DNA of 36,624 nt from a virus. Below the pieces are notes generated by a model. That model had not been told where the DNA came from and made no database searches. It saw only the letters and a list, made by a program, of their open reading frames with translations. Position 1 is the stretch's first letter, and the number at the start of each line of letters is the position of its first letter. Position numbers and translations under genes: made by a program. The stretch is from positions 1 to 36,624 of the IMG/VR virus record IMGVR_UViG_3300046028_003357. One strand, written 5' to 3'. Positions 6,927 to 26,198 of the stretch are shown here, piece after piece.

Positions 6927-7330
6927 AACAATGATATGTCTAATGGTGTTGCGGGCAAGTGTTGCCTCCCCTTGCCGCTTCTATCTCCTATAAGCTGAAA
7001 AATGCGTTGCCTATGTTCCTTGCCACTGATGCCGGGGTGGATTACGCAACCAAACCTTCCGTCTGCCTGGATGACAAGGTGGTTGCGCTGCTTATCACCA
7101 CCTACCTCGGCACAGGCTGGGCATTGCCCGACCAATTTCGAGCCAATTTTACGTAGGCCTACCACTGTCAAGCGGTGTCTAGCGTTTTGGACGGGAGGGA
7201 CGGCATTTCCCAACTCCATTCCTACCTTGGAGCACCTTATACCCTCTTTTACACTCCATGCACCGAGTTGAGAAGTGCCGTCCCCCGTCCCAAACGCTTG
7301 ACTACGCTTGACCAATCCAGTGTTTTTCAT
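6923..7330 (-). CDS. CHC2-like zinc-finger protein, probable primase partner
   Basis: The protein has 135 residues. Residues about 68-98 hold GQCPACAEVGGDKQRNHL, then FGCVIHPG: a CxxC pair followed by C and H, spaced as in the CHC2 zinc-binding domain of DnaG-type primases and some phage primases. The start overlaps the stop of the primase-polymerase/helicase gene (7327-7330). An obvious reading is that the zinc module, often fused to the N-terminus of primases, is a separate polypeptide here, encoded just after the enzyme. No polymerase or TOPRIM motif is present. It probably helps template recognition during priming; this is inferred from neighbourhood and the four ligands. Confidence 0.65.
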   Translation of the reverse strand: MKNTGLVKRSQAFGTGDGTSQLGAWSVKEGIRCSKVGMELGNAVPPVQNARHRLTVVGLRKIGSKLVGQCPACAEVGGDKQRNHLVIQADGRFGCVIHPGISGKEHRQRIFQLIGDRSGKGRQHLPATPLDISLL

Positions 7331-9297
7331 GCGGTCAAGGTAACTTTCATGTAGCCTCGGGACTGTTGTTGCTGACCGTCGCTACGGTGAATGTGGTTCG
7401 ACGGGATGGCCTGGTGTATCTCCAGCATGAGTTCAGCAGCACGCTTCTGGAAACGCTTCTCCGGTTCAGGCCCCCATTCCTTGTTGTTACACATCGTCAT
7501 ATAGGCACTGTATAGCTCCTCAGTAGTGATACAATCCGACGACATACTGCTGCCTCTGACATGATTGACGATAAAGTATCTAACACTATCGCTCTCGCTC
7601 AACAAGTTATCAATCATGCCGCGCTGCCTCTCGGTCACCGGGAACGGCCTTCCGGCCTGCATGACCCGGCACAGATCCTCCGCACCCTGCAGGAACCAGT
7701 TCAATATACCACTACCTTCACGCTCTATCATCACATCGTGATAATTGGGAATCACCTTCTCAGGCTTGGGCTGGCTGAAGTCGAGCAGCAGCAACCGCCT
7801 CGACCACGCACCCAGGTCGCCCTGCACATTGACCTTCAGCCGACTATTCGCAGTCACGATGACGTTCCAGTCGCCCACCACTGCCTTTGCCCCTGACTTC
7901 CCCTTGAACTCCACGCTCAGCCTATCGCCGCCGGTCAGTGCCTTGAGCTGCTGGCTCTCCTCGCAGGACAGGAAGTCCGGCGGCACGTCGCTGCCGATCA
8001 GTAACGTCCTATCGTGGAAGTTGGCCAGCTCGAACCGACTCCCCAGGTGCGCGGTCCTGAGCTCGCTGCAGTTCTCATCACCGACCAACCGCCGCACAAG
8101 CCCGGCCACGGTGCTCTTCCCGCCGCCGCCCGTGCCTGTCAGCAGCAGGATCACCTGGGGCCTGTTCCTCTGAAGCAGCGCAAGTCCGCCCCAACGCTGC
8201 AGCAGCATCTGGTCATCCTGCTCGGGCAGCGCATGATCCAGGAATGCCTGCCACATCGGGCTCTGCGCACCCTGCACGTAGCGTACCGGGGTCTGGTTCC
8301 TGCTCATCCACTCCGGGCCAAACCCGTGCATCTCATACGGCGCAGCACGCAGGTCCACCATGACATTGCTGCAGTGGACCACGCTGTCCGGCCTGGAGAA
8401 CGGATTGCGCTCGACCTGCAGCCTTCCGATCAGATCCACCACCTGATCGGCGAAACTCGCTGTGAGCCTCGTCAGCAGCGCCGGCAGCCGCGGGTCCTCC
8501 GTAGACGCCACCTGATCCAACAGAACGCGCCTGGCGGTCTCCAGGGCCTTCTGCGCCATCTCCTCGCGGCTCATGCTCATCCAGATACCCCGGTCCTCCT
8601 TGTACCAGTAGTGCATCCCGCTGACTGCATCGAAGAGGAATCGCTCCTTGTGCGCCATGTAGGCCGCGAAGAACGGTGCCTGCAGATTGCCGGTGCCGCT
8701 CCGGCCAAAGGTCCACGGCACGCCATGCTGCCGGATCAACTGCGCGATCTCATCCCGGCTGCCCGGCGCCGGCCAGCCCTCGGGCCACCGGATCTGGCTG
8801 AACTCCAGCGCCACCGGCGGCCTGTCCACCAGCACGCTATACTCGCACCCGCTCGGGTGCACGCCCTTCACCGTGCTCAGGTTCCCCGTGCTCCTCCACT
8901 CATACAGCGGCTTGCCCAGCAACCGATCTCCCACCTGCACCATCTCGGTCGTGCTGCGCTCCGCGCACGGCCCCGGGTACTTGCCCGTGATCCTCACGCC
9001 AATCTGTGCGCCCCTTTTCCCCTTCCACCTTGCCGACCCCTGCAGCACCGGGTTGACCCTCAGGAACGCCTCCAGGCTGCCCTCATCGTCGAAGTCTATC
9101 GCGCACAGCCCTCCGGAGAACTCCCCCAGCCTCACCGCCACGTTCCCATGCTCAAGCATGACCCGGTACACGTCCCGCTTAGTACTCTCCATGGTCTCCT
9201 GGGTGTACTTGACCATCGGTATCTTGGTCCCCGGGCTCTGCGGCACCAGGAACAGCGGCGTGCCCAGCCAGCCCTCAATCTCTTGCGTCGTCATCAT
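7327..9297 (-). CDS. Primase-polymerase / SF3 (D5-like) helicase
   Basis: The protein has 656 residues with two parts. The N-terminal part resembles an archaeo-eukaryotic primase: LCAIDFDDEGS contains the paired catalytic acids D68 and D70, and a basic strand follows. The C-terminal part is a D5-type superfamily 3 helicase with Walker A GTGGGGKST (388-396), a B-motif region RTLLIGSDVPP (430-440), sensor-1 asparagine in IVTANSR (N484) and arginine-finger candidates in AWSRRLLLLDF (R500/R501). Such fused enzymes unwind the replication fork and lay primers. Two ATGs are adjacent at 9297 and 9294. The start overlaps the methyltransferase stop (ATGA, 9294-9297). Confidence 0.92.
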   Translation of the reverse strand: MMTTQEIEGWLGTPLFLVPQSPGTKIPMVKYTQETMESTKRDVYRVMLEHGNVAVRLGEFSGGLCAIDFDDEGSLEAFLRVNPVLQGSARWKGKRGAQIGVRITGKYPGPCAERSTTEMVQVGDRLLGKPLYEWRSTGNLSTVKGVHPSGCEYSVLVDRPPVALEFSQIRWPEGWPAPGSRDEIAQLIRQHGVPWTFGRSGTGNLQAPFFAAYMAHKERFLFDAVSGMHYWYKEDRGIWMSMSREEMAQKALETARRVLLDQVASTEDPRLPALLTRLTASFADQVVDLIGRLQVERNPFSRPDSVVHCSNVMVDLRAAPYEMHGFGPEWMSRNQTPVRYVQGAQSPMWQAFLDHALPEQDDQMLLQRWGGLALLQRNRPQVILLLTGTGGGGKSTVAGLVRRLVGDENCSELRTAHLGSRFELANFHDRTLLIGSDVPPDFLSCEESQQLKALTGGDRLSVEFKGKSGAKAVVGDWNVIVTANSRLKVNVQGDLGAWSRRLLLLDFSQPKPEKVIPNYHDVMIEREGSGILNWFLQGAEDLCRVMQAGRPFPVTERQRGMIDNLLSESDSVRYFIVNHVRGSSMSSDCITTEELYSAYMTMCNNKEWGPEPEKRFQKRAAELMLEIHQAIPSNHIHRSDGQQQQSRGYMKVTLTA

Positions 9298-10628
9298 AGT
9301 AATTCTTTGATCAACACTCGGAAGGCCCGCTCTGCGGTGGCTGGAACGACTCCGTTGCCGAGCAGTCGGAGCTCATCCGTTCTATTGTCACAGGAGACGC
9401 ACAACTGGGCATGGTCCATCCGACCGGCAGACCCATCAGCGTCTCCACCCAGCGGGGGTTGAGTTTGCCGCATCCCATCGCCTTGGCTTCCGCTTCCGGT
9501 AGCATTGACGCCAGCTTCTCCCGATTCCCGGCTCCACCTGCTAGACCCGTCGGACCTCCTGTCACTCCCGATGAAGCCGGAGTCGGCCACGTCTCGGACT
9601 TCATCTGATTGCTCAGACCCACTTGCCTCGACTTGTCGCTCCTCCTGTCGCTCGCATCCGGTGTCGCCCAGTTCTTCACCTGCTGATCCAGCTTGTCGAT
9701 CATGCTCCCGTCCTTCTGCCGGTGCGCTCCGGTCGACACGGTGGCTGTCTGCCATTGCTTCTCCACTACATGGACCTGAGTTGTCAGTTGTGTCGCACGT
9801 TCCAACGGTCTTCCGCTCGTTGTCGCCGTCATCCCGCAAGCACCGCTCTTGGGAGTCATCCAAAGTCTCCCTTCCTGCGATAACTCTGGGCGGCTCCCAT
9901 CCATACTGCTGCTCGCCGGGGCGGCTGGGCCATACACTTGATTTGATAGAGTCAGATTGAACCCCTTCGGAAACGCTTCCGTCATTGTGTGGCCCTTCCA
10001 CTCCCTGGCTGATGGCGTTGCCCACGTCTTGACCACCACCGTCGTCAGACTCTCCTGACTCCCCTTCATGCCTCTGGAGCGATCCTGAAAGCCCTGCCGC
10101 ACCTCTGAAGCTACTGGAGACGGCCATGATGAACACCCGCTTGCGTTGGTGCGGTGCGCCGACTTCAGACGCGCTGAATATGCCCCACGTCGCTCTGTAA
10201 CCCATTCCTGCCAGGTCTTCGATGACGTCGGACAACCCCAGGCTGATATGTCCTTCGACGTTTTCAAAGAAGCAGATCCGTGGTCTGAGAAGTCGAATGC
10301 CATCTGCAATCCACGGCCAGAGGTGCCGCGGGTCTTGCTTTCCTTTGCGCTGGCCGGCTGCGCTGAAGGGCTGGCAGGGGTAGCCCCCAGTGAGGATGTC
10401 CACTCGGTCGCAAAACGCTGCCCAAGGGAAGGTCTTAAGATCCGGCCAGATAGGTGCCGGGTCCATGAGTCCCGCTTCCATTTTCGCAACCAGATTGCTG
10501 ATGGCGAAGGCTTCGATCTCACAAAGAGCGATTGTGCGCAGACTTGGGATTGCTCGTTTGAGTCCAAGCTCAATGCCTCCGTATCCAGCGCACAGGCCAA
10601 GGTGTGTAACTGCTTTGGAAGTATCCAT
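9294..10628 (-). CDS. DNA cytosine-5 methyltransferase (Dcm-like)
   Basis: The protein has 444 residues from the ATG at 10628. Motif I is HLGLCAGYGGIELGL (9-23). Motif IV is GGYPCQPFSAAG with catalytic C85. Motif VI is FENVEGH (E122, N123, V124). Motif VIII is QRKRVFI (161-167). Motif X is LLGNGVVPATAERAF near the C-terminus. It methylates cytosine in phage DNA, probably against host restriction. Between motifs VIII and X the sequence is not a normal target-recognition domain. It is hydrophilic, with recurring units such as DVGNAIS, TLDDSQ, MADSHRV, LGDTGCE and DVADSGF. The gene is overlapped almost completely by another long frame (9311-10633). A shared AGGAGG lies 10 bases upstream. Confidence 0.9.
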   Translation of the reverse strand: MDTSKAVTHLGLCAGYGGIELGLKRAIPSLRTIALCEIEAFAISNLVAKMEAGLMDPAPIWPDLKTFPWAAFCDRVDILTGGYPCQPFSAAGQRKGKQDPRHLWPWIADGIRLLRPRICFFENVEGHISLGLSDVIEDLAGMGYRATWGIFSASEVGAPHQRKRVFIMAVSSSFRGAAGLSGSLQRHEGESGESDDGGGQDVGNAISQGVEGPHNDGSVSEGVQSDSIKSSVWPSRPGEQQYGWEPPRVIAGRETLDDSQERCLRDDGDNERKTVGTCDTTDNSGPCSGEAMADSHRVDRSAPAEGREHDRQAGSAGEELGDTGCERQEERQVEASGSEQSDEVRDVADSGFIGSDRRSDGSSRWSRESGEAGVNATGSGSQGDGMRQTQPPLGGDADGSAGRMDHAQLCVSCDNRTDELRLLGNGVVPATAERAFRVLIKELL

Positions 10629-10633
10629 GTCAT
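9311..10633 (-). CDS. Overlapping frame covering the methyltransferase gene, W-x-T-P repeat protein (candidate dual-coding gene)
   Basis: This is an open frame of 440 codons in a different phase from the methyltransferase, on the same strand. Its ATG (10631-10633) is in ATGA overlap with the helicase stop and lies 5 bases after AGGAGG, better spaced than the methyltransferase ATG five bases later. The C-terminal two thirds contain recurring units WPSPVAS, WATPSARE, WMTPKSG, WATPDAS and WPTPASS, ending with LNPRWVETLMGLPVGWT. I recall this layout (W-P-T-P units, then LNPxWVExLMGxPxGWT) from phage proteins annotated near or as cytosine methyltransferases; this is from memory. The N-terminal third is composition-biased and could be a shadow. 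Translation is plausible but unproven. Confidence 0.5.
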   Translation of the reverse strand: MTWILPKQLHTLACALDTEALSLDSNEQSQVCAQSLFVRSKPSPSAIWLRKWKRDSWTRHLSGRILRPSLGQRFATEWTSSLGATPASPSAQPASAKESKTRGTSGRGLQMAFDFSDHGSASLKTSKDISAWGCPTSSKTWQEWVTERRGAYSARLKSAHRTNASGCSSWPSPVASEVRQGFQDRSRGMKGSQESLTTVVVKTWATPSAREWKGHTMTEAFPKGFNLTLSNQVYGPAAPASSSMDGSRPELSQEGRLWMTPKSGACGMTATTSGRPLERATQLTTQVHVVEKQWQTATVSTGAHRQKDGSMIDKLDQQVKNWATPDASDRRSDKSRQVGLSNQMKSETWPTPASSGVTGGPTGLAGGAGNREKLASMLPEAEAKAMGCGKLNPRWVETLMGLPVGWTMPSCASPVTIERMSSDCSATESFQPPQSGPSEC

Positions 10634-11895
10634 TCCGCCCTCCTCTCAAACGCCAACGCCTCCTCGCTGATGAACCAACCCTTCGGCCACTCGGTCAGGT
10701 AGATCCCGCCCAGTGTCCGCACCCGGCTCAGTGCCACGTAGGCCTGCCCAGGCTCCCGGGCCGCCCGTATATCAATCCTCGCGGCATCCAGGGTCAGTCC
10801 CTGCGCCCGGTGTATGGTCATCGCGTAGGCCAATCGGAGCGGGTATTGTTGGACGGTCACCCCCAGACTCTCAAAGAACCATTTGCGCCGACCCAATGAA
10901 ATCTTCTCACCGCGGCTCTCGACCACGATATACCCACCCCGAAACTCCACCACACGGCCCACCTGCCCATTGTAGAAGCCCTGCTCCGCATCGTTCGCGG
11001 TAAACATCACGGCAGCCCCGGGCTTCAACTGCAGCACCCGCGGCGTGCTCATGTTCTTCGTGGCGAACTCCACCGCCTGATCCACACCCCTGACCTCGGA
11101 GTCAAACACAGCAATCGGGCCATCAATTGAGCTCAACCGGTAGTTGTTCCACTTGTCCACCTGCACGTTGTGCGTCATCAACCGAGTGATATGCTCCGGC
11201 GGGTTCATCCTGAGTGCACTCCGCAGCAGTTGGTTGTCCCGCGGCTTCATCCTGCCCACCCGGAACCCGCTCAGCATCTGAATAAACGGCAAGTCATTCT
11301 GCCTCCGCACCTTCTCGAGCTTGATCGTCTTGAAGTCGGCCTCCTCCCAAGCCTGACTCAGGAAAGCCCAGTCGTATGCCTTGCTCTGGTCGGTCCTGAC
11401 CGGCGGCAACTGCAGGAAGTCGCCCAGGAAGATAACCTGTAACCCGCCGAAGGGCCTGCTGTCTTCTCTGATCCGCTTCACCCAGTAGTTCAGGAAGTCG
11501 AGGTGCCGGCCTGCCATCATGCTGATCTCGTCGACCACCAGCACCTCGGTAGCCCGCACCCGCTTGCGGGCTCCATGAATCGAAGGCTGCTCCTCCAGCC
11601 GCTCGGCAGCCTGCAGGAAGTCCTCGCCGTCCTGCGGCCCCAACTGCATCCCGCACCACCTATGCACGGTGGTTCCGCCCACGTTCAGCGCGGCAATGCC
11701 TGTCGGGGCTGTGATGGCCACATCCCGGACTCCTTCCACCCTGCTCAGGAACTCCCGCAGCAGGGTGGACTTGCCGGTGCCCGCCTGCCCTGTGAGGAAG
11801 ACGTTCCCAAAGGATTTTGCCCAGACCATGAAACGGTCCTCGGGCGTCGGATCGAAGTCGTCCTCGATCACTTGGACAGACGGGCTCGTAGTCAT
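10630..11895 (-). CDS. Pif1/RecD2-like SF1B DNA helicase
   Basis: The protein has 421 residues. SF1 motifs in order are Walker A GQAGTGKST (36-44), TAPTGIAAL (motif Ia), VVDEISMM (120-127, Walker B), GDFLQLPPV (158-166, motif III), TIHRAQG (360-366, motif V) and YVALSRV (386-392, motif VI). This order and spacing, including the MTIHRAQGLTLD segment, are characteristic of Pif1-type 5'-3' helicases. It probably acts in phage DNA replication or recombination beside the primase-helicase, exonuclease and SSB-like genes. Its stop overlaps the ATG of the W-x-T-P frame (10630-10633). The start ATG (11893-11895) is 4 bases after the exonuclease stop (11900-11902). Confidence 0.95.
   Translation of the reverse strand: MTTSPSVQVIEDDFDPTPEDRFMVWAKSFGNVFLTGQAGTGKSTLLREFLSRVEGVRDVAITAPTGIAALNVGGTTVHRWCGMQLGPQDGEDFLQAAERLEEQPSIHGARKRVRATEVLVVDEISMMAGRHLDFLNYWVKRIREDSRPFGGLQVIFLGDFLQLPPVRTDQSKAYDWAFLSQAWEEADFKTIKLEKVRRQNDLPFIQMLSGFRVGRMKPRDNQLLRSALRMNPPEHITRLMTHNVQVDKWNNYRLSSIDGPIAVFDSEVRGVDQAVEFATKNMSTPRVLQLKPGAAVMFTANDAEQGFYNGQVGRVVEFRGGYIVVESRGEKISLGRRKWFFESLGVTVQQYPLRLAYAMTIHRAQGLTLDAARIDIRAAREPGQAYVALSRVRTLGGIYLTEWPKGWFISEEALAFERRAE
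10639..10644 (-). promoter_or_regulatory. Shine-Dalgarno serving two overlapping frames
   Basis: A perfect AGGAGG inside the end of the helicase gene is followed by GCGGA, ATG (10633, W-x-T-P frame), AC and ATG (10628, methyltransferase frame). Spacing is 5 bases to the first ATG and 10 to the second. Both starts are therefore reachable from a single ribosome-binding site, and the first also overlaps the helicase TGA. Confidence 0.75.
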
Positions 11896-17553: not shown

Positions 17554-20100
17554 CTAGTTGTTGTCGAAAGTCTTGAAGGTCCAACCGGCTACAGGGTCGT
17601 ATACATAAAGCCTCAGGTTTGTGGAATCCCAGTAGAGCGGAACCCTTTCGTTGAGTGTTCCAGATTGGCCCGGTGTTTCCGTCGGAACTCCGGCATCAGA
17701 CGGGATCCAGACAAACCCATATTCCATGTTGGTGGCCCCTGCAGGGCCATACAAGTCAGCGCCACTCTCTGCCCAACTGCTTTCCTCGATAACCTTTCCT
17801 GTGCTGTCAGCAAACTTGGCAAAATAGTTTGCATTCGCGCCGCTCGGCCCAACCACGTCTCCGGTACCTGCTCCAGTTGCTGCAATGGTGATCGTGCCAG
17901 GGCCATTCGTGATCGTGATGCCGGTGCCAGCAGTCAGCGTAGCCTTGGTCCACCCGTCATCATCCGCATTGCCGATCAGCAGCTCGCCATTGGCGAAGCT
18001 GGGGAAGCCAAGGCCGCCATTGGCGCTGCTCAGGTATCCCTGCAGCGTCATCGTGCCCGAGGTGGTGATGGGAGTGCCATCGAACGACATCCCGGTGGTG
18101 CCGCCCGAAAGCGCAACGCTCGTGACCGTGCCGGTGTTGTTGGTGTAGCCGTTGGGATTGGTTGCGGGGTAGGCGCCAAGGTTGATCAGGGCGTTTCCAG
18201 CATCCGTTGCCCCGGTGCCTCCATTCGAAACGGCCAACATCCCAGAGATTGTGATCGTACCCGACGACGTGATCGGGCCGCCGGTGGTGGTAAGGCCTGT
18301 CGTGCCGCCGTCCACACCCACCGACGTCACGCTGGCCCCTGCGGCAATGCCGTCGAGCTTGGTGGCCTGTGTGGACGTCATGTACCCGTTCTGCGTGGTC
18401 GTGGCCGGCACCTGGCTGATCACCGGGGTGGTGCTGCCGGTAGCCACCGAGATGTTGGCGCCGCCCGAGGCCGAGACGTTGGTCACGGTGCCGGTGTTGC
18501 TGGTGTACCCAGCCGGATTGGTGTCGGGGTAGGCCCCGAGGTTGGTCAGGGCTCCAGCAGCCGTCGTGGCTCCGGTGCCGCCGTTGGCAACGGCAAGTGT
18601 ACCGGCCAGCGTCAGCGTGCCTGTGGTCGTCACAGGGCCGCCCGAGAAGCTCATCCCTGTCGTACCGCCGGAAGCATCCACCGACGTCACGGTACCGGCA
18701 GCAGAGGCTGACAGCGTGGTCCCGGACATCGAGAGGCCGGTGCCCAGGCTGATCTCCTGCGTGACTCCAGCACCAGCACCAGCACCGCGGCCAAGCAGTC
18801 GGGAGGCAGCCGAAATGTCCTGAATCTTGGCGTAGGTCACCGCGCTGCTGGCGATTGTCTGGGCCGTACCACCGGCAGCCTTGGTGACGTCCCCGGTGAA
18901 GGCACTGGTCTGGATGCCGCCGGAGTCTGTGAACTCCACACCGCCGCCGACATTCAATTCCTCAACAACGCCCGTCCCCGAGGTATCGCGGCCCAGGATC
19001 TTGTCGGTGGCAATCTGCTGCACCTTGGCGAAGGTCACCGCATTGTTGGCAATGGTCGCAGCGAAGGACCCCGTGCCAGACCCGGTGACATCCCCGGTTA
19101 GCGTGATGGTCTGGTCGCCCGTGTTGCTGCCCGACAGGTTGCTGCCGGTAACCGTGCCCGAGGCAGCCACCGAGGTCGGGGTGATGGCACCCAATGCTAC
19201 GGTCAGGTTGGGCGTGCTGGTCGCATTGGTGACCGTACCGCTCACGCCGTTGGCATTGGTGAACCCGAAGGACGTCACCGTGCCGGTGTTCGACGTGTAG
19301 CCATTCGGATTCGACGCAGGGTAGGCCCCCAGGCTCGTCAAGGCAGCCGCCTCGGTGGTTGCACCGGTTCCGCCTGCCGACACGGCTACAACCCCTCCCA
19401 GCGTGATTGTGCCGCTGCTGGTGATCGGGCCGCCCGAGGTCGTCAGGCCGGTCAGGCCTCCAGAGACATTGACGCTGGTCACACCGCCGCCGGTGGGTCC
19501 CGGGGGGCCGGCAGGGCCAGTGGGGCCAGCAGGACCCTGCGGACCCTGCAGGCCGCCGGCACCGAGGGGTTTGGTTTGGCCGGTGTCGAGCCGGGTGATC
19601 TCACAGATAGCGAAGGTCTCATCAACCCCAGCAATGCTGGTCGGTACACCGAGATGATCTGCACCGTTGGCAGTGATGTAGTATTCCAGCCGGTAGACCG
19701 TGTCCTTGTGCGGTGCGATCCGCACGTTCATGTCGAGGTACTGGTTTGACTGATTGCTGACGTCGACCGAGACGCTGTAGCCGATGACGACAGCGTTCGT
19801 GACATCGTACAGCCGCATCCGGGTCTCGCGGGTGTGCTTGAAGGCAGCGATTGATCGCACCTGATAGGACCCGGCAGCCAGTTTGAAAGTGTTGCTTTCC
19901 AACTGAATGATCAGCCCGTTGGGATCGGACTGGATCGTGTTGAGCTCCCGAGTGGTCCAGGTGGTAGCCACGCCCGTCCCGCCGCTGGTTCCGCTGGCCT
20001 TGCTGTCGGTCAGCACCGCCACCTTCAGCGTCAGGCTGTCGACGTCCTTCCGCAGCTTGTTGATCAGGCTGGTTGCCGTCTGTGAATCGTAGGAGCTCAT
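17554..20100 (-). CDS. Tail fibre with C1q-like N-terminal part, collagen-like segment and repeats
   Basis: The protein has 848 residues. A short coiled coil (about 10-32) is followed by a beta-rich segment 47-171 that resembles the C1q/TNF-type jelly roll seen in phage fibres (LESNTFKLAAGSYQVRSIAA). A collagen-like Gly-X-Y run lies at about 185-204 (GPQGPAGPTGPAGPPGPTG). Then come related modules with GGPITSSGTITLGG, GGTGAT and LGAYPxxNPxGYTSNTG near residues 206-278, 469-541 and 592-661, with a decayed fourth copy to about 700. The C-terminus (YWDSTNLRLYVYDPVAGWTF) is a different compact end. It probably binds the host surface. The ATG overlaps the stop of the polyvalent-protein gene. Confidence 0.85.
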   Translation of the reverse strand: MSSYDSQTATSLINKLRKDVDSLTLKVAVLTDSKASGTSGGTGVATTWTTRELNTIQSDPNGLIIQLESNTFKLAAGSYQVRSIAAFKHTRETRMRLYDVTNAVVIGYSVSVDVSNQSNQYLDMNVRIAPHKDTVYRLEYYITANGADHLGVPTSIAGVDETFAICEITRLDTGQTKPLGAGGLQGPQGPAGPTGPAGPPGPTGGGVTSVNVSGGLTGLTTSGGPITSSGTITLGGVVAVSAGGTGATTEAAALTSLGAYPASNPNGYTSNTGTVTSFGFTNANGVSGTVTNATSTPNLTVALGAITPTSVAASGTVTGSNLSGSNTGDQTITLTGDVTGSGTGSFAATIANNAVTFAKVQQIATDKILGRDTSGTGVVEELNVGGGVEFTDSGGIQTSAFTGDVTKAAGGTAQTIASSAVTYAKIQDISAASRLLGRGAGAGAGVTQEISLGTGLSMSGTTLSASAAGTVTSVDASGGTTGMSFSGGPVTTTGTLTLAGTLAVANGGTGATTAAGALTNLGAYPDTNPAGYTSNTGTVTNVSASGGANISVATGSTTPVISQVPATTTQNGYMTSTQATKLDGIAAGASVTSVGVDGGTTGLTTTGGPITSSGTITISGMLAVSNGGTGATDAGNALINLGAYPATNPNGYTNNTGTVTSVALSGGTTGMSFDGTPITTSGTMTLQGYLSSANGGLGFPSFANGELLIGNADDDGWTKATLTAGTGITITNGPGTITIAATGAGTGDVVGPSGANANYFAKFADSTGKVIEESSWAESGADLYGPAGATNMEYGFVWIPSDAGVPTETPGQSGTLNERVPLYWDSTNLRLYVYDPVAGWTFKTFDNN
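18001..19485 (-). repeat. Repeated modules within the tail fibre gene
   Basis: Three clear copies and one degenerate copy of a module of about 70 codons lie at about 19267-19485, 18478-18696, 18118-18327 and 18001-18123. Each holds a GG-P-x-T-T/S-S-G-T strand pair followed by a GGTGAT turn and a LGAYP-NP-GY-NTGTVT stretch. Such duplications are hot spots for recombination and host-range change. Confidence 0.75.
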
Positions 20101-23100
20101 GGGCGGGTCTTGCGGCGGATGATGCGTTGTGCCTCCTCCAGGCTCGAGGCAATGCCGATCAGGCTGCCTGCAGGGCCGTAGAGGCGAAGGGAGCCCTTGG
20201 CTTTGCCCGGGATGGCCCGGTAGCCGCCCGGGAACGAATAGGCCCCGGGCATGGCGGAGTCGGGCTGGGGCATATACCGGATATCCTCCGAGGTTGCCTT
20301 GAAGCGCTGGGAGAGGGGGATGATGTTGCCGGCGTCGTCCTTGGTGATCGCATCAACCAGTTTGACCTGGCTTGAATCTGCGACGTAGTAGATACGTTCG
20401 TTGCCGGGTAATTCGACAATGCCAGCCTTGGTAGGTTGATTTTCCGCACTGAACCCAGACATCACTTGCCCAAGCGTTTGCGGTGTAGCTTGGAATACGG
20501 GAGCCCCTTCAGGAATGCGTAGGAAAACCCGCTTCACTTCGGGCACGGCCTTTGTCGAGGTCATCACCTTGGCCGCCTCAATAAAGCTGTCGGACAACCT
20601 TTTGTTGATAGGCTTCAGGTCTTTGGCGTAACCACGCAGTTCCTTGATGAACTCAGGGACGTCGTCAATGGAGCCCCAGTCGAACTCAGGCAGCATCCCG
20701 TCATCGACCGAGCTGTAGCCCTTGGACGAGAAGTACTCCTGAGCAGCCACGTCCTCGTCGAACATACGCATTGCGTCGTTGGCAACACGCAGGCCGGCGT
20801 CCAATCGCACAGCCTCGTCACCTAGGCGCTTGGAGTAGCCTTCAGCAGCCTTCTTGTCGGTGGTGAACGAGAACGCTTGGCGGGACACACCCGAGGTCTC
20901 GCCACGCATCCGCTTGTCGAATACGTTGAACCCGCCTGTAGGTGTGCCGTGGTAGACAGGACCAATGGTATACCCAGCCGCCTTCGCCGCCTCATCCACC
21001 ATCCGCTGCGCGGTGGCCGTGTCGCCAGCCTTCACCGCAGAGAGGTAGTCGGTGTCCGAGGCAGGCATATTCCGCACGCTGATTGCCGCGGCGATCTTCT
21101 TGGAAGGCACCGCCCACAGGTTCTCCGGGTCGTAGTTCTCGATCTCGTCGATCTTCTTCAGCCGGATGGGGTCTTCCATGCCGTCGTAGGGTGCGCCGTA
21201 GATCCGGTAGCCCTTCTCAAACAGGTCCATGGCCTCACGATGGGTATTGACGCCGCGGCCCGAGGCCATGTCGGATGGCATATAGCGCAGCATGGCCTCC
21301 TTGATAGGACCGTGCTCCGTGTCGGATTGGTTCAACCGATCCCACACCTCGTGGTGCAGCAACGTCTGGGCGAAGTCCTTGAATGCAGCGGGAACTTTGA
21401 TGCCAAGCTGAGTCAGACGGTCCTTCTGCTCCATCAGCACCTGCTTGGTGACAGGCACTTCCTTGCCGTAGACCAGTTTGCCCTGGCGGCTGTCGAATGT
21501 CGGGATGTCGCCGCGACCAAGCTGGCCAGACCAGAACCCAACCTTGCCGTAGCTGATGCCCTTAAAGTTGTTCCTGACGTAGTCGATGAACTTGTCCGTC
21601 GGCATCGAGTTGACCGCGTCGATGATCTCCTGCGCCTTCGGGTAGAACTGCTCGACAGCAGTCTTCATCTGCTCTTTCAGCTTATTATGGAAGCCGAACG
21701 ACCGGAACTTCTGCACCACCGCATCTGCGGCTTGCTCATCGAACACGCCGCGCTCTGCGGCGTTGAGGTACTGTTGCCCTTCAGGAGTGCCGAGAAGCTG
21801 CGCGAAAGCGTCCTCTGGGCGCACCTTGGTACCTTCAGCGAACGGAGCGTCCGGCCAGTTCTTCTTGATCGTAGAAACAGGCAGCTCCTGGCGCTGAATT
21901 GATGACAGCGTGATGCCGTAGGATTTGACCACGTCGCGCAGCGTGATGCCCTTGTCGCGCATCGAACGCATGAACGCACCAAAGGCCTTGGCCCCACCTT
22001 TTACGTCACCACCACCAACCTCGGCCGCAATCGCATTGATGTCGCGTGCGGTCAGGCTGGATGGCATGAAGCGCTCACTGGGAACCGACGGGATGCCTTG
22101 CTTCGTTTTGATCGTGTTGATGATGTTGTCCATCACCGGCATGACCGTCTGAAGTGGCTGGGCAGTCACAATTCCCTGAGCGTTCCTGATGCGCTTCTCA
22201 GTGCTCAGGTCCGATATGTTGTAGAACTTGTCGAGGTATCCAATGGTTTCGCCATGGATTGTCCAAGGATACGAGTAGTGGAACCCAGTCTTTTCCGGTG
22301 CCTGCTTCACATTGACTCCAAGCAGAGCAACGACAGATCCGAATGGGACGTCAGCCAGCTCAGGATCTGCAATGTCACGGGCAATGTCTGCCGGTGATAT
22401 TCCAGCAGCGGTCAGTTCCTTCGCGGTGATCGGAAGCGCCTTGCGCTGCATCTGGGTCAGCAGCGGCTCCATGTCAGCGAAGTTGAGCTGCTTGTTCTGC
22501 ACCGCATTCTTCAAGTCAGCCAGTGAGTTGATCTTGCTGAACTTGTCACGGGCCGACTGCTTGATCGACTTGGCCGTCGAATTGACGATGGCCGAAGACA
22601 TCGCAGCAATCTGCGAGTTCGCCGCCTTCTTGGTGATTGTTTTGGAATCAATCGCAGCCTGCATGGCCTCGATGTAGGCAAGCTGGCCTGTCTGATTCTT
22701 GAGATGATTGATGGGGCTTTGAACGGTAATTCCGACAATTACGTTGCCGTTTGGATCGGCGTCCTTCTTTAGGCGACTGATGAATCGGTCGGCAGTTGCC
22801 TGATCAGAGAACGCCCATCCACCACCGTTGAAGATGTTCATAAACCCGCGCCCACCTTGGCCTAGGACGCTGAGTTTCCGCTTCGCACCAGTAGGACCAA
22901 CGGCCATCTCTCCGATGCCCATACGGTCAGCAGCAAGCGCGATGATCTTCCTGTCCGCGTAGTCCTCCAGCTTCACCTTGTCACTGGCAGGCATGAACCT
23001 GCCAATGTCAGCCTTGGGTATGGTGAACGTCTCGGAGTCAGGAGCTATGACTACATCCCCCGCTTGTCGAACCGTCCCGACTTGGCCTTGGCCTTCCGCG

Positions 23101-26100
23101 CCACCGAGAGCGCGATCGCCACCGCCTGCTTCTGCGGTTTGCCGGCCTTCATTTCCCGGGAGACGTTGCTGCTGATCGACTTCTGGCTGTAGCCTTGCTT
23201 GAGTGGCATCTGCTTTCCTTTCTGCTTGGGTTTGGGTGTCGTAGATCCCGATGAGCTTGCCATCAGGACCGTAGAGCCTGTGCTTGGCGCCGCTGACGAT
23301 GCGGTAGCCCTCGTCGGAGTTGGTGACGAGCTTGTCGCCGATGGTCTCGGTAGGCATCCAGCGCATCTTGGACTTCTGGATGGCGTCCTCCGAGATACGG
23401 GCGCGGAAGTCCATCGGGGCTGTCGATCCGATGCGGTCCAGGCGGAAGTCGCGCACGAACTTGCGCCCGCCCTTCTCCTGCTCGTTTACGAAGTCACCGA
23501 GGAATTTTGCTTTCTCCAGACCAAAGATCTCGGCAGACCGGCGGGCGCCTTCACCGGCATCGAGGTTGGTGAAGTACGCGGCCAGGTCCGACATGAACCC
23601 GTCGACATTGTCCCACAGGCCGGCAGCCACACCGCCGTCGGGCGCCGTCAGCTTGTCCAAGGCGCCGCGGATCTTGCTGATGTCGATGGCCTTGATGACC
23701 GGGTTGTCGGCCTTGGATAGGTAGAAGCTGTAGGGCAGCACCTCGCGCTGGGAGAGGCGGATGCCGCTGTTGTACTTGCTGGTGAACTTGCCGGTCAGCC
23801 GGTTCTTCACCCGGCGGGTGGCTGCGCCGTAGTTCAGGAAGATGCTGTTGCCGGCGTCCATGGCCGCGTTGACGGCCCGGATCTTGTCCTTCATCCGGCT
23901 GCTGACCGCCTGGGACTGCTCGATGGCGGACAACTGCTGCGGGCTGAACCGGCCCAGGATCTCGCCATCGACCACGCGGGCTCCCGGAACTCCTTCAAGG
24001 ATTGTCCTGATGGCGGCGGTGTCTTTCTCCTCGCGGACGCGAATCTCCTCGTCTGAAAGGTTCCTGACGCTGCCGTCGGGCATCTTCTCAGCCACACCGA
24101 GGTCAACCAACTGCTTGGCGGCAATCGGGTTGGAGACATCCTGCGGTTTCAGGACCTTGCCCGGGCCTTCGTTCTCTATGGTGATGCGCTCATCCAGCTT
24201 GCGCCGGGCACGTACCAGATCGCGCAGCATGGCGTTCACCTGGGGCGATGCCTGCTTCAGATCAGGGAACAGGACCGAATCAGTCGGCTTCACGCCAAAG
24301 GTTCGCTCAATGGTCGCCGCGGCATCGGCCAAGGCCCGGCTGGCGTTCTGGGTCAGAGCCAGGTCGAGAAGTTGCCTGGTAAGCCCCGTGAAGCCCTTCA
24401 GCAGTGCGTCAGGCTTCTGACCTGCCAAAAGCCCGGCGAAGTGCTCTGCAGCCAGCTCCGAGGCAACGTAGCCTGCCTTCTTGTCGATGGTGTCGTACTG
24501 GGCGAGCTGGTCGGCACGCTGCTGATTGCCTGCAGCCAGCTTGTCGCGGTACTGGTTGAAGCGGGCCTCGATCTCGGCGTCATTGAAAGCGCCCTCGGCC
24601 AGCTTGCGGATGGTGTCGCCTTCCTGAATCCAACGGCCAACCAGCGCATCCTTGATCTCGGTGGCACCGCCCTCGAGCTGAGTGGTTTTCTCTAGAGCAT
24701 GGAACAGCTCGTGGCCGAGCGTGTAGAGCGGGCCGTCGCCAGTGCCCTTACCGATGATGTCGGCGTTGATGAATATGGTGGGCCGTTCAGCTTGTTCAAA
24801 CTGCACGCCACGGATGTTGTCGCCGAACTTTTCGGCCATCTGAGCGTTGGAACGGTAGAGGATATCGACATCCCCGAACTTGCCGCGCACCAATCCCTGC
24901 AGATCCATCAGCGCCGAGGCAGCATCCACACCGTGCTGATCGCGCACCCGCTCAAACAGCGCCTTGGTTGTCGGGTCTTGCTGGGCGTCAATGAACCGCC
25001 CGAGGTCTCCGGCACGTGCCTCCTTGGCGGCCTTGCCTGTGAGCCGCTCGAAACCGCGGGCACCGAGAGCACCGGCTGCGCCCTGAACAAGGCCAGATCC
25101 AAGGCCTGCAGCAGCCCCTTCCTCGCCACCGGACAAAAAGCCCAAGCCTGTACCAACCGTTGCGCCTTCAATTCCTCCGGCAAGCCCCCTCAGTGAGGCA
25201 TCCAACGCAGCGTCCCCACCGTACTGCCCGACCACACCAAGCATACGCTGGCGTAGGTTGGCACCCGGGGCAGCACCGATGGCCTCCAGAGGCCCGATGC
25301 GCGAAGGCTGGGTCATCAGGTTCTCGCCAGCCCGTGTCAGCGCTTCGCCAGCCTCGCGTGCGGTACGGATGCCGGCAGGAATGGCAGCGAAGGCTGCGGC
25401 CTCCGGTGCAATACCGAGGGCTCCTGCGATACCGGCGGTGGCCGCGGTGCTGCGGAGGCCTTCAGGGGTCATCCCCAAGGCTTCCGCTGTCATGCGCTCG
25501 GCAGCACCGGCAACGCGCTCCAGAGGCCTTGCAGCCCCGGCAATGGCACGCCCAGTGAGTTGAGTGCCTTTACCGACAGCGCGGGTGGCGAGTTTGCCTG
25601 CGCCAAATATTTCACCAACGCCTGGGAGAGCCAGCGTCGGGTCGAGGATCATGGACACGCCCTGGACAAACTCCGGGTTGGTCAGCTCTGGCGGAACGAA
25701 CAGGCCCTCCTCGCCACGCTCCAGTCGGGCTGTGGTGTTGGCAAAGTCGCGGGCCTCGAGGAACTGCTGGTAGCGGGACTCCGGTGTGCCGGTGCCTGCC
25801 ACGAGGTCCTTGAACTTAAAAAGAGGCGAGGCCGGGTCTTGAGACTGCGCCACGAGGCCGTAGAGCTGCCGGGTGCCTTGGGCCGCGCCCTCGATGTAGT
25901 TGAGCGGGTTGACGGCTGCACCCTGCGCACCCTGCGATATGGCGCTACCGATCATACCGGCAGCAGCATCGACAGACTGCGCGATGGTGTTGATCCAGTC
26001 GGTCTGCTTGTTCTTCGCGTACTCCTCGTACTTCAGGTAGTCGTCGACCGATGGTTTGTAGGCCGGGTCCTGCATGGCACCGGCAATGTCCTCGCCGGTG

Positions 26101-26198
26101 GCTGGGAACTGCTCGGACAGAATCCGCTGGGCCTCATCCTGGCCAACAGAATCAGGAAACTCAACAACCTGAGAGCCGACCTGGATCTGGTATGGCAT
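20097..26198 (-). CDS. Giant polyvalent virion protein with metallopeptidase and ADP-ribosyltransferase-like parts
   Basis: The protein has 2033 residues. The N-terminal 400 are Ala/Gly-rich with helical and possibly membrane-active stretches. A zincin-type metallopeptidase is marked by GHELFHALEK (HExxH at 496-500), with a likely third ligand in ASELAAEHF (E581 or E585). An ADP-ribosyltransferase-like module spans about 1713-1973: VYHGTPTGGFNVFD (1748-1761), then SFTTDKKAAEGYSKR. An R-x-M-P motif recurs six times (946, 1067, 1376, 1638, 1709, 1974) at module borders. Two related segments with RLYGPxGxLIGI occur at 965-994 and 1992-2026. Such proteins are packaged in the virion and injected with DNA to modify host targets. 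Residues 997-1049 are low-complexity and overlap a nested gene. Confidence 0.85.
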   Translation of the reverse strand: MPYQIQVGSQVVEFPDSVGQDEAQRILSEQFPATGEDIAGAMQDPAYKPSVDDYLKYEEYAKNKQTDWINTIAQSVDAAAGMIGSAISQGAQGAAVNPLNYIEGAAQGTRQLYGLVAQSQDPASPLFKFKDLVAGTGTPESRYQQFLEARDFANTTARLERGEEGLFVPPELTNPEFVQGVSMILDPTLALPGVGEIFGAGKLATRAVGKGTQLTGRAIAGAARPLERVAGAAERMTAEALGMTPEGLRSTAATAGIAGALGIAPEAAAFAAIPAGIRTAREAGEALTRAGENLMTQPSRIGPLEAIGAAPGANLRQRMLGVVGQYGGDAALDASLRGLAGGIEGATVGTGLGFLSGGEEGAAAGLGSGLVQGAAGALGARGFERLTGKAAKEARAGDLGRFIDAQQDPTTKALFERVRDQHGVDAASALMDLQGLVRGKFGDVDILYRSNAQMAEKFGDNIRGVQFEQAERPTIFINADIIGKGTGDGPLYTLGHELFHALEKTTQLEGGATEIKDALVGRWIQEGDTIRKLAEGAFNDAEIEARFNQYRDKLAAGNQQRADQLAQYDTIDKKAGYVASELAAEHFAGLLAGQKPDALLKGFTGLTRQLLDLALTQNASRALADAAATIERTFGVKPTDSVLFPDLKQASPQVNAMLRDLVRARRKLDERITIENEGPGKVLKPQDVSNPIAAKQLVDLGVAEKMPDGSVRNLSDEEIRVREEKDTAAIRTILEGVPGARVVDGEILGRFSPQQLSAIEQSQAVSSRMKDKIRAVNAAMDAGNSIFLNYGAATRRVKNRLTGKFTSKYNSGIRLSQREVLPYSFYLSKADNPVIKAIDISKIRGALDKLTAPDGGVAAGLWDNVDGFMSDLAAYFTNLDAGEGARRSAEIFGLEKAKFLGDFVNEQEKGGRKFVRDFRLDRIGSTAPMDFRARISEDAIQKSKMRWMPTETIGDKLVTNSDEGYRIVSGAKHRLYGPDGKLIGIYDTQTQAERKADATQARLQPEVDQQQRLPGNEGRQTAEAGGGDRALGGAEGQGQVGTVRQAGDVVIAPDSETFTIPKADIGRFMPASDKVKLEDYADRKIIALAADRMGIGEMAVGPTGAKRKLSVLGQGGRGFMNIFNGGGWAFSDQATADRFISRLKKDADPNGNVIVGITVQSPINHLKNQTGQLAYIEAMQAAIDSKTITKKAANSQIAAMSSAIVNSTAKSIKQSARDKFSKINSLADLKNAVQNKQLNFADMEPLLTQMQRKALPITAKELTAAGISPADIARDIADPELADVPFGSVVALLGVNVKQAPEKTGFHYSYPWTIHGETIGYLDKFYNISDLSTEKRIRNAQGIVTAQPLQTVMPVMDNIINTIKTKQGIPSVPSERFMPSSLTARDINAIAAEVGGGDVKGGAKAFGAFMRSMRDKGITLRDVVKSYGITLSSIQRQELPVSTIKKNWPDAPFAEGTKVRPEDAFAQLLGTPEGQQYLNAAERGVFDEQAADAVVQKFRSFGFHNKLKEQMKTAVEQFYPKAQEIIDAVNSMPTDKFIDYVRNNFKGISYGKVGFWSGQLGRGDIPTFDSRQGKLVYGKEVPVTKQVLMEQKDRLTQLGIKVPAAFKDFAQTLLHHEVWDRLNQSDTEHGPIKEAMLRYMPSDMASGRGVNTHREAMDLFEKGYRIYGAPYDGMEDPIRLKKIDEIENYDPENLWAVPSKKIAAAISVRNMPASDTDYLSAVKAGDTATAQRMVDEAAKAAGYTIGPVYHGTPTGGFNVFDKRMRGETSGVSRQAFSFTTDKKAAEGYSKRLGDEAVRLDAGLRVANDAMRMFDEDVAAQEYFSSKGYSSVDDGMLPEFDWGSIDDVPEFIKELRGYAKDLKPINKRLSDSFIEAAKVMTSTKAVPEVKRVFLRIPEGAPVFQATPQTLGQVMSGFSAENQPTKAGIVELPGNERIYYVADSSQVKLVDAITKDDAGNIIPLSQRFKATSEDIRYMPQPDSAMPGAYSFPGGYRAIPGKAKGSLRLYGPAGSLIGIASSLEEAQRIIRRKTRP
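23051..23209 (-). CDS. Nested 52-residue gene inside the giant protein gene (DUF6496-like family)
   Basis: This gene is in another frame, wholly inside the 2033-codon gene. It encodes MPLKQGYSQKSISSNVSREM, then KAGKPQKQAVAIALSVARKA and a basic tail ending RFDKRGM. This closely matches a small phage protein family I recognise by its ISSN-x(n)-G-x-PQKQAVAIAL core (DUF6496-like). An AGGA lies 6 bases before the ATG. The large protein in this stretch is a Gln/Gly/Glu-rich linker with no recognisable fold, which supports the small frame as the constrained one. It is basic and probably DNA-associated; function is unknown. Confidence 0.8.
   Translation of the reverse strand: MPLKQGYSQKSISSNVSREMKAGKPQKQAVAIALSVARKAKAKSGRFDKRGM

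Follow-up and report, generated by a model that had tools for sequence, protein, structure and literature searches.

The window analysed here is the whole 36,624-nucleotide stretch of the IMG/VR virus record IMGVR_UViG_3300046028_003357. On its minus strand lies a gene for a putative cytosine-5 (C5) DNA methyltransferase chain, here called alpha, and a second open reading frame (ORF), beta, occupies the +1 frame relative to it. Alpha runs from an ATG at 10628 to a stop at 9294 and beta from an ATG at 10633 to a stop at 9311, and nearly all bases are common to both. The first-pass annotation of this DNA had reported two frames of 444 and 440 codons sharing almost all of their bases, which the coordinates confirm. 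Its end coordinate for the locus, 10649, implies a TTG start; this is only the mechanical start of the ORF, and it is the two ATGs that are conserved as starts. The third frame over alpha contains 24 stops in the window locus. The two genes and their start signals are as follows.

9294..10628, minus strand: alpha, predicted catalytic chain of a cytosine-5 DNA methyltransferase, 444 amino acids, matching PF00145, with motifs I-VIII and X
9311..10633, minus strand: beta, 440 amino acids, +1 frame relative to alpha, phrog_1008 family, with W-x-T-P units and a motif-IX-like signature
10639..10644, minus strand: AGGAGG, Shine-Dalgarno sequence positioned to serve both starts, 5 bases before the beta ATG; a shared Shine-Dalgarno sequence recurs in relatives
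10626..10633, minus strand: double start ATGACATG, with the beta ATG at 10631-10633 and the alpha ATG at 10626-10628

The start region reads AGGAGG-GCGGA-ATG(beta)AC-ATG(alpha). The spacing given at first reading, with AGGAGG 5 bases before the beta ATG and the alpha ATG 5 nucleotides further, was therefore correct. Relatives of the locus were drawn from viral contigs, GTDB genomes, annotated phages and plasmids. The start offset is -5 (ATGACATG) in 43 related loci; a second family contributes 52 loci with an offset of +4 (ATGAATGAG). The two start orders, that of the ATGACATG family and the opposite order of the ATGAATG family, each stand behind a single Shine-Dalgarno sequence, and the alpha and beta starts are no more than 5 nucleotides apart in most loci. 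In two loci with a Kagunavirus-type alpha (L002 and L442), the beta start lies about 88 nucleotides inside alpha; this alpha has about 45 residues fewer between motifs I and IV, and EQV replaces ENV.

Alpha belongs to the cytosine-5 DNA methyltransferases (PF00145) by its motifs I, IV (PCQ), VI (ENV), VIII and X, the same set that the first-pass annotation had assigned to this frame.

10563..10595, minus strand: alpha motif I, LCAGYGGIELG (S-adenosylmethionine binding), conserved in an alignment of alphas (A4)
10353..10388, minus strand: alpha motif IV, GGYPCQPFSAAG (catalytic cysteine), with P84, C85 and Q86 invariant in the alignment
10254..10271, minus strand: alpha motif VI, FFENVE, with E122 and N123 invariant in the alignment
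10137..10160, minus strand: alpha motif VIII, GAPHQRKR, read from the sequence and used as anchor in comparisons of relatives
9885..9932, minus strand: alpha island WPSRPGEQQYGWEPPR, the main linker stretch conserved in alpha's own right, in family A only
9321..9374, minus strand: alpha motif X, ELRLLGNGVVPATAERAF, C-terminal, conserved beyond what beta imposes

The match of alpha to PF00145 (E-value 1e-29) covered only profile positions 4-164 of 324 and ended after motif VIII. Likewise, a profile built from 73 alphas aligned to residues 12-180 of M.HhaI only. A target-recognition region and a motif IX within the alpha chain were not detected in the Pfam and M.HhaI profile alignments, and the linker of alpha was mostly at the null level given beta.

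Beta matched phrog_1008 with an E-value of 2e-26 and otherwise small PHROGs only. All of the 73 beta proteins scanned matched the PHROG 1008 profile; PHROG 1008 is the beta family. The WPSP, WATP, WMTP, WATP and WPTP units and the GKLNPRWVETLMGLPVGWT ending that had been picked out in this frame were all found in beta, and its LNPxWVExLMGxP sequence forms the motif-IX-like block, placed after the variable W-x-T-P units. The VADS/VGNA-like repeats in these methyltransferases would be the shadow of the W-x-T-P units of beta.

10178..10267, minus strand: beta box before motif VIII, LKTSKDISAWGCPTSSKTWQEWVTERRGAY, counterpart of SWKTxQxSL...TWPxWGMxxxG in other betas (alignments A1 and A6; also in actinophages)
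9578..10126, minus strand: variable part of beta containing five W-x-[TS]-P units, proposed target-recognition region, where alpha for the most part does not rise above the null set by beta
10115-10126, 10013-10024, 9851-9862, 9659-9670 and 9578-9589, minus strand: the five W-x-[TS]-P units of beta, read from the sequence
9413..9469, minus strand: beta motif-IX-like GKLNPRWVETLMGLPVGWT; scored on canonical enzymes, the beta signature singles out their motif IX

Phage contigs and prophages numbering in the hundreds contain the alpha/beta pair. Sequenced phages of E. coli, Salmonella, Klebsiella, Vibrio, Mycobacterium and Streptomyces are among its carriers, as are 17 of the 299 Pseudomonadota genomes sampled (about 6%). 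The BASEL phage Bas74 has the pair as well, and Bas70, 72 and 73 gave related hits. The first 245 loci gave 192 motif pairs in which LNPxxxExLMGxP was read at +1 relative to alpha motif VIII, with no break in the beta ORF over this stretch. Not once did the two motifs share a frame; two deviating loci in this comparison were frame breaks. Among the complete loci retrieved with alpha queries, 59 of 60 had an open beta frame with its motif. A profile search of 372 loci gave 388 alpha/beta ORF pairings at +1, the few others being frame breaks or ORFs mixing both. Beta without alpha occurred in a single case, at a contig end. Except for this fragment, all the W-x-T-P proteins that could be checked overlap a C5-methyltransferase frame, which agrees with the first-pass proposal that the W-P-T-P family may be an alternate-frame product. 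Several loci depart from the usual form. Frame breaks in L153, L155 and L190 exchange the C termini of alpha and beta, and the L190 alpha has the WVEWLMGWPIGWT tail of beta, by sequencing error or real rearrangement. The alpha-like methyltransferase ORF at L242:1350-2442 has no overlapping beta, and a normal alpha/beta pair follows directly downstream. The pair on the megaplasmid of Methylorubrum extorquens AM1 (L450) has a degenerate beta motif IX, ATWMLGFPEAWTSL, and is possibly decaying.

Stop codons in the beta frame were compared with a null in which synonymous codons were shuffled within each alpha gene, keeping the protein and the codon usage. For the window alpha between motifs I and X, none of 5000 shuffles gave a stop-free beta frame (mean 5.6 stops, minimum 1). 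In 140 non-redundant homologues, 11 beta-frame stops were observed over the alpha catalytic half against 402 expected, and 17 against 249 over the remainder of alpha; the +2 frame of these homologues showed no stop depletion. Alpha-silent differences at fourfold sites that create a beta stop numbered 1 against 898 expected in one family and 0 against 804 in the other, the pairs not being independent. In the controls, +1-frame stops were as frequent as expected in 11 canonical C5-methyltransferases (164 against 161) and nearly so in 218 neighbouring genes (2302 against 2388). Alpha-silent changes were also scored for their conservativeness in beta, and here the control frame was shifted equally; stop avoidance alone was specific.

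Long open alternative frames can arise by chance in high-GC genes, and frame breaks are present in some loci (L153, L155 and L190). Beta might accordingly be only a by-product that is never translated, left by codon usage or by frameshift errors in what is otherwise an ordinary methyltransferase gene. However, stops appear in nearly every gene once its codons are shuffled with protein and codon usage unchanged, the same pattern recurs in hundreds of loci including that of an AT-richer phage (L001), and canonical methyltransferases and neighbouring genes lack the depletion. Because of the synonymous shuffles and the canonical and neighbour controls, an origin of beta by chance or codon bias is ruled out. 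As a general explanation the by-product is refuted, and we give it almost no credence. These sequence comparisons leave us nearly certain that beta is a real protein under selection.

Constraint at the protein level was tested on beta in pairs 35-75% identical in alpha. Over the alpha catalytic half, beta identity in family A was 0.40-0.61 against a null of 0.27-0.35, with a minimum around the PCQ loop, and same-codon identity was 0.46-0.72 (0.41-0.72 at its widest) against a null of about 0.35. Same-codon identity over beta motif IX was 0.93. Both beta identity and same-codon identity dropped to the null past the usual end of beta, and the neighbouring helicase, used as a control, was near its null (28 pairs only). 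In the reverse test with beta fixed, alpha motifs I-VIII and X were far above the null; between motifs VIII and IX alpha was near the level given by beta alone, except for the WPSRPGEQQYGWEPPR island in family A. Alpha is nevertheless kept open there: 184 of the 192 genes lack any stop in the alpha linker, and the total is 58 against 873 expected. With alpha open across the linker and beta over its whole length, both frames are therefore maintained end to end, each with its own conserved segments. The second frame is thus open beyond chance and constrained at the protein level, as in a same-strand overlapping (overprinted) gene pair. The first-pass annotation had suggested a codon-level comparison of homologous loci as the check on its claim. 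In hundreds of loci, always at +1, second-frame stops are depleted, synonymous change in the methyltransferase frame is strongly reduced, and W-x-T-P and LNPxWVExLMG are conserved. Selection on both frames in the relatives supports its view that one locus may encode two proteins.

The motifs of a C5-methyltransferase are divided between the two chains. The beta signature, scored position-specifically along 11 canonical enzymes, placed motif IX first in six of them and within the top six positions in ten. As in two-polypeptide C5-methyltransferases, the motifs are split with IX in the smaller chain, motif IX being recognised by this signature only. Of 201 complete, non-redundant loci, 192 have motif X in alpha. 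In five others (L046, L055, L066, L320 and L323), it is found in beta after motif IX, and alpha ends 19-140 codons past motif VIII. It is in neither continuous ORF in the remaining four, where the +2 reading after motif IX (the alpha register) still shows motif X; therefore, the alpha frame is interrupted upstream there. No case of motif X in both chains at once was found among the 201 loci. In the Streptomyces phages Lilbooboo and phiBT1, alpha likewise ends just past motif VIII and beta carries motifs IX and X. Nothing speaks more strongly for alpha and beta being two halves of one enzyme than this swapping of motif X from chain to chain.

Programmed frameshifting could also use both frames, by producing one long protein that follows alpha to motif VIII, beta for the recognition region and motif IX, and alpha again for motif X. 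This would restore the canonical order of motifs I-VIII, recognition region, IX and X, and a single shift would be enough in the five loci with motif X in beta. The usual layout, however, demands two shifts of opposite sense. A frameshift fusion needs the second frame only past the shift site, whereas beta stops are depleted over the alpha catalytic half as well (11 against 402 expected), beta has its own start beside that of alpha, and in the linker alpha, too, is kept largely free of stops. Since frameshifting requires neither an open beta over the first half of alpha nor a separate start, two independently initiated proteins appear to be the better model, and we consider a frameshift fusion very improbable.

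The complementary enzyme parts in the two frames point to a split methyltransferase rather than two unrelated proteins, a relation that the first-pass annotation had not seen. We consider it probable (about 0.8), from the sequences compared, that alpha and beta form one two-subunit cytosine-5 methyltransferase with alpha as the catalytic and beta as the specificity subunit. A single mRNA with a single ribosome-binding site and two adjacent ATGs would give two full-length overlapping polypeptides. Alpha would be the large catalytic domain, with motifs I-VIII plus X connected by a mostly unconstrained linker. Beta would give what alpha lacks, namely an N-terminal part over the alpha catalytic half, the variable W-x-T-P region for recognition, and motif IX. 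We infer that both chains are translated and assemble into an active enzyme, which would methylate phage DNA, most probably as protection from host restriction, with its specificity supplied by beta.

Several results weigh against this reading. The specificity role of beta is read from its position and its motif IX, with no recognised fold, and no match to beta was found among Pfam, NCBIfam and PADLOC profiles and PDB sequences. In a profile-profile comparison, whole beta did not match canonical methyltransferases significantly (P 0.38), although in family A the highest-scoring local match fell on motif IX. AlphaFold models of beta alone were of low confidence, with a predicted local distance difference test score (pLDDT) of 50.5 for the window beta (input with 70 sequences) and 53.2 for a compact relative (89 sequences); beta may need alpha for folding, or the alignments may have lacked depth. 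Finally, the conserved alpha island inside the linker of family A suggests that alpha may contribute some of the recognition region.

The missing fold or annotated domain and the non-significant profile match would also suit a beta that is a real overprinted protein with a role apart from the methyltransferase, such as DNA binding, anti-restriction or regulation. Yet the last conserved block of beta fits motif IX position by position, alpha itself lacks motif IX and a recognition region, either chain can hold motif X, and beta is accompanied by alpha at all loci but the one contig-end fragment. We therefore regard a beta outside the enzyme as unlikely, and prefer the two-subunit methyltransferase.

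Within the two-subunit enzyme, the W-x-T-P units are possible recognition elements, a role that we propose with some doubt. Equally tentative is the idea that the frame split is an evolutionary device, with catalysis and specificity in different frames and W-x-T-P as a new modular recognition element. If this is true, alpha is an unconstrained linker over the recognition region of beta, and specificity could therefore change with catalysis untouched.

The pair lies between two predicted helicase genes.

10630..11895, minus strand: PIF1-like helicase, upstream neighbour (PF05970, E-value 6e-31)
7327..9297, minus strand: primase-polymerase/D5-type helicase, downstream neighbour (PF19263, PF08706)

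ATGA at 10630-10633 joins the helicase stop to the beta ATG, and ATGA at 9294-9297 joins the alpha stop to the ATG of the downstream gene. Both junctions had been described in the first-pass annotation and are present in the sequence. A 482-amino-acid open frame on the plus strand (8014-9462) is antisense to the D5-type helicase and reaches into the methyltransferase; it is probably a composition effect. A 2033-amino-acid ORF on the minus strand (20097-26198) has no PHROG match. Most long ORFs of the late region likewise have none, and the phage is divergent.

Long, fully nested same-strand pairs with both products under selection have rarely been established in phages with double-stranded DNA. 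In these loci, annotation usually misses the second protein or shortens it, through the habit of gene callers to allow no overlap. In Lilbooboo (L437:1453-2448), beta is annotated with a late start, as gp33, avoiding the overlap. In phiBT1 (L440:1405-2337), the beta ORF is unannotated yet has motifs IX and X, and gp9.1 is annotated as 'may be inactive'. Overlapping coding sequence (CDS) pairs are annotated in a few phages, namely Kagunavirus K1ind2 and further K1-type records. Among the papers searched, none was found that discusses or describes the alpha/beta gene pair. If the two-subunit enzyme is real, many phage 'orphan cytosine methyltransferases' assayed as single genes would have lacked the subunit that sets their specificity, and the corresponding REBASE-type predictions should be revised.

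The small chain of M.EcoHK31I is encoded in another frame inside the large-chain gene. Two-polypeptide C5-methyltransferases occur naturally, M.AquI and M.EcoHK31I being examples (PMC3404938). In M.EcoHK31I (YGGCCR), the large chain has motifs I-VIII and X and the recognition region, the small chain has motif IX, and both are needed; in M.AquI, the large chain has motifs I-VIII and the small chain part of the variable region and motifs IX-X (PMC3404938). Compared by description only, the window locus resembles M.EcoHK31I in having motifs I-VIII and X in alpha and motif IX in beta. It differs in that beta spans the whole alpha gene with a shared start region. It probably also differs in the place of the recognition region: alpha, bar the family A island, is mostly unconstrained where the large chain of M.EcoHK31I is said to have its recognition region, and beta appears to be the driver there. 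The motif division of M.AquI is the same as in the five loci with motif X in beta and in the actinophage versions. Unlike in M.AquI, beta runs upstream over the alpha catalytic half in the other frame, and motif X is usually in alpha. As in canonical monomeric C5-methyltransferases such as M.HhaI and Dcm, a catalytic domain, motif X and a motif-IX-like block are present, the first two in alpha and the third in beta; the canonical genes, however, encode recognition region and motif IX in one frame with the catalytic part, and their +1 stops are not depleted. The PHROG 1008 label, 'DNA methyltransferase', omits that this family is the second-frame partner of a methyltransferase. The same overlap is found in K1ind2 (GU196280), where both CDS are annotated, as 'C-specific methylase' and 'Mte8-like protein', a likeness taken from annotation only. 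The locus family is thus a widespread and more extreme variant of the known split C5-methyltransferases.

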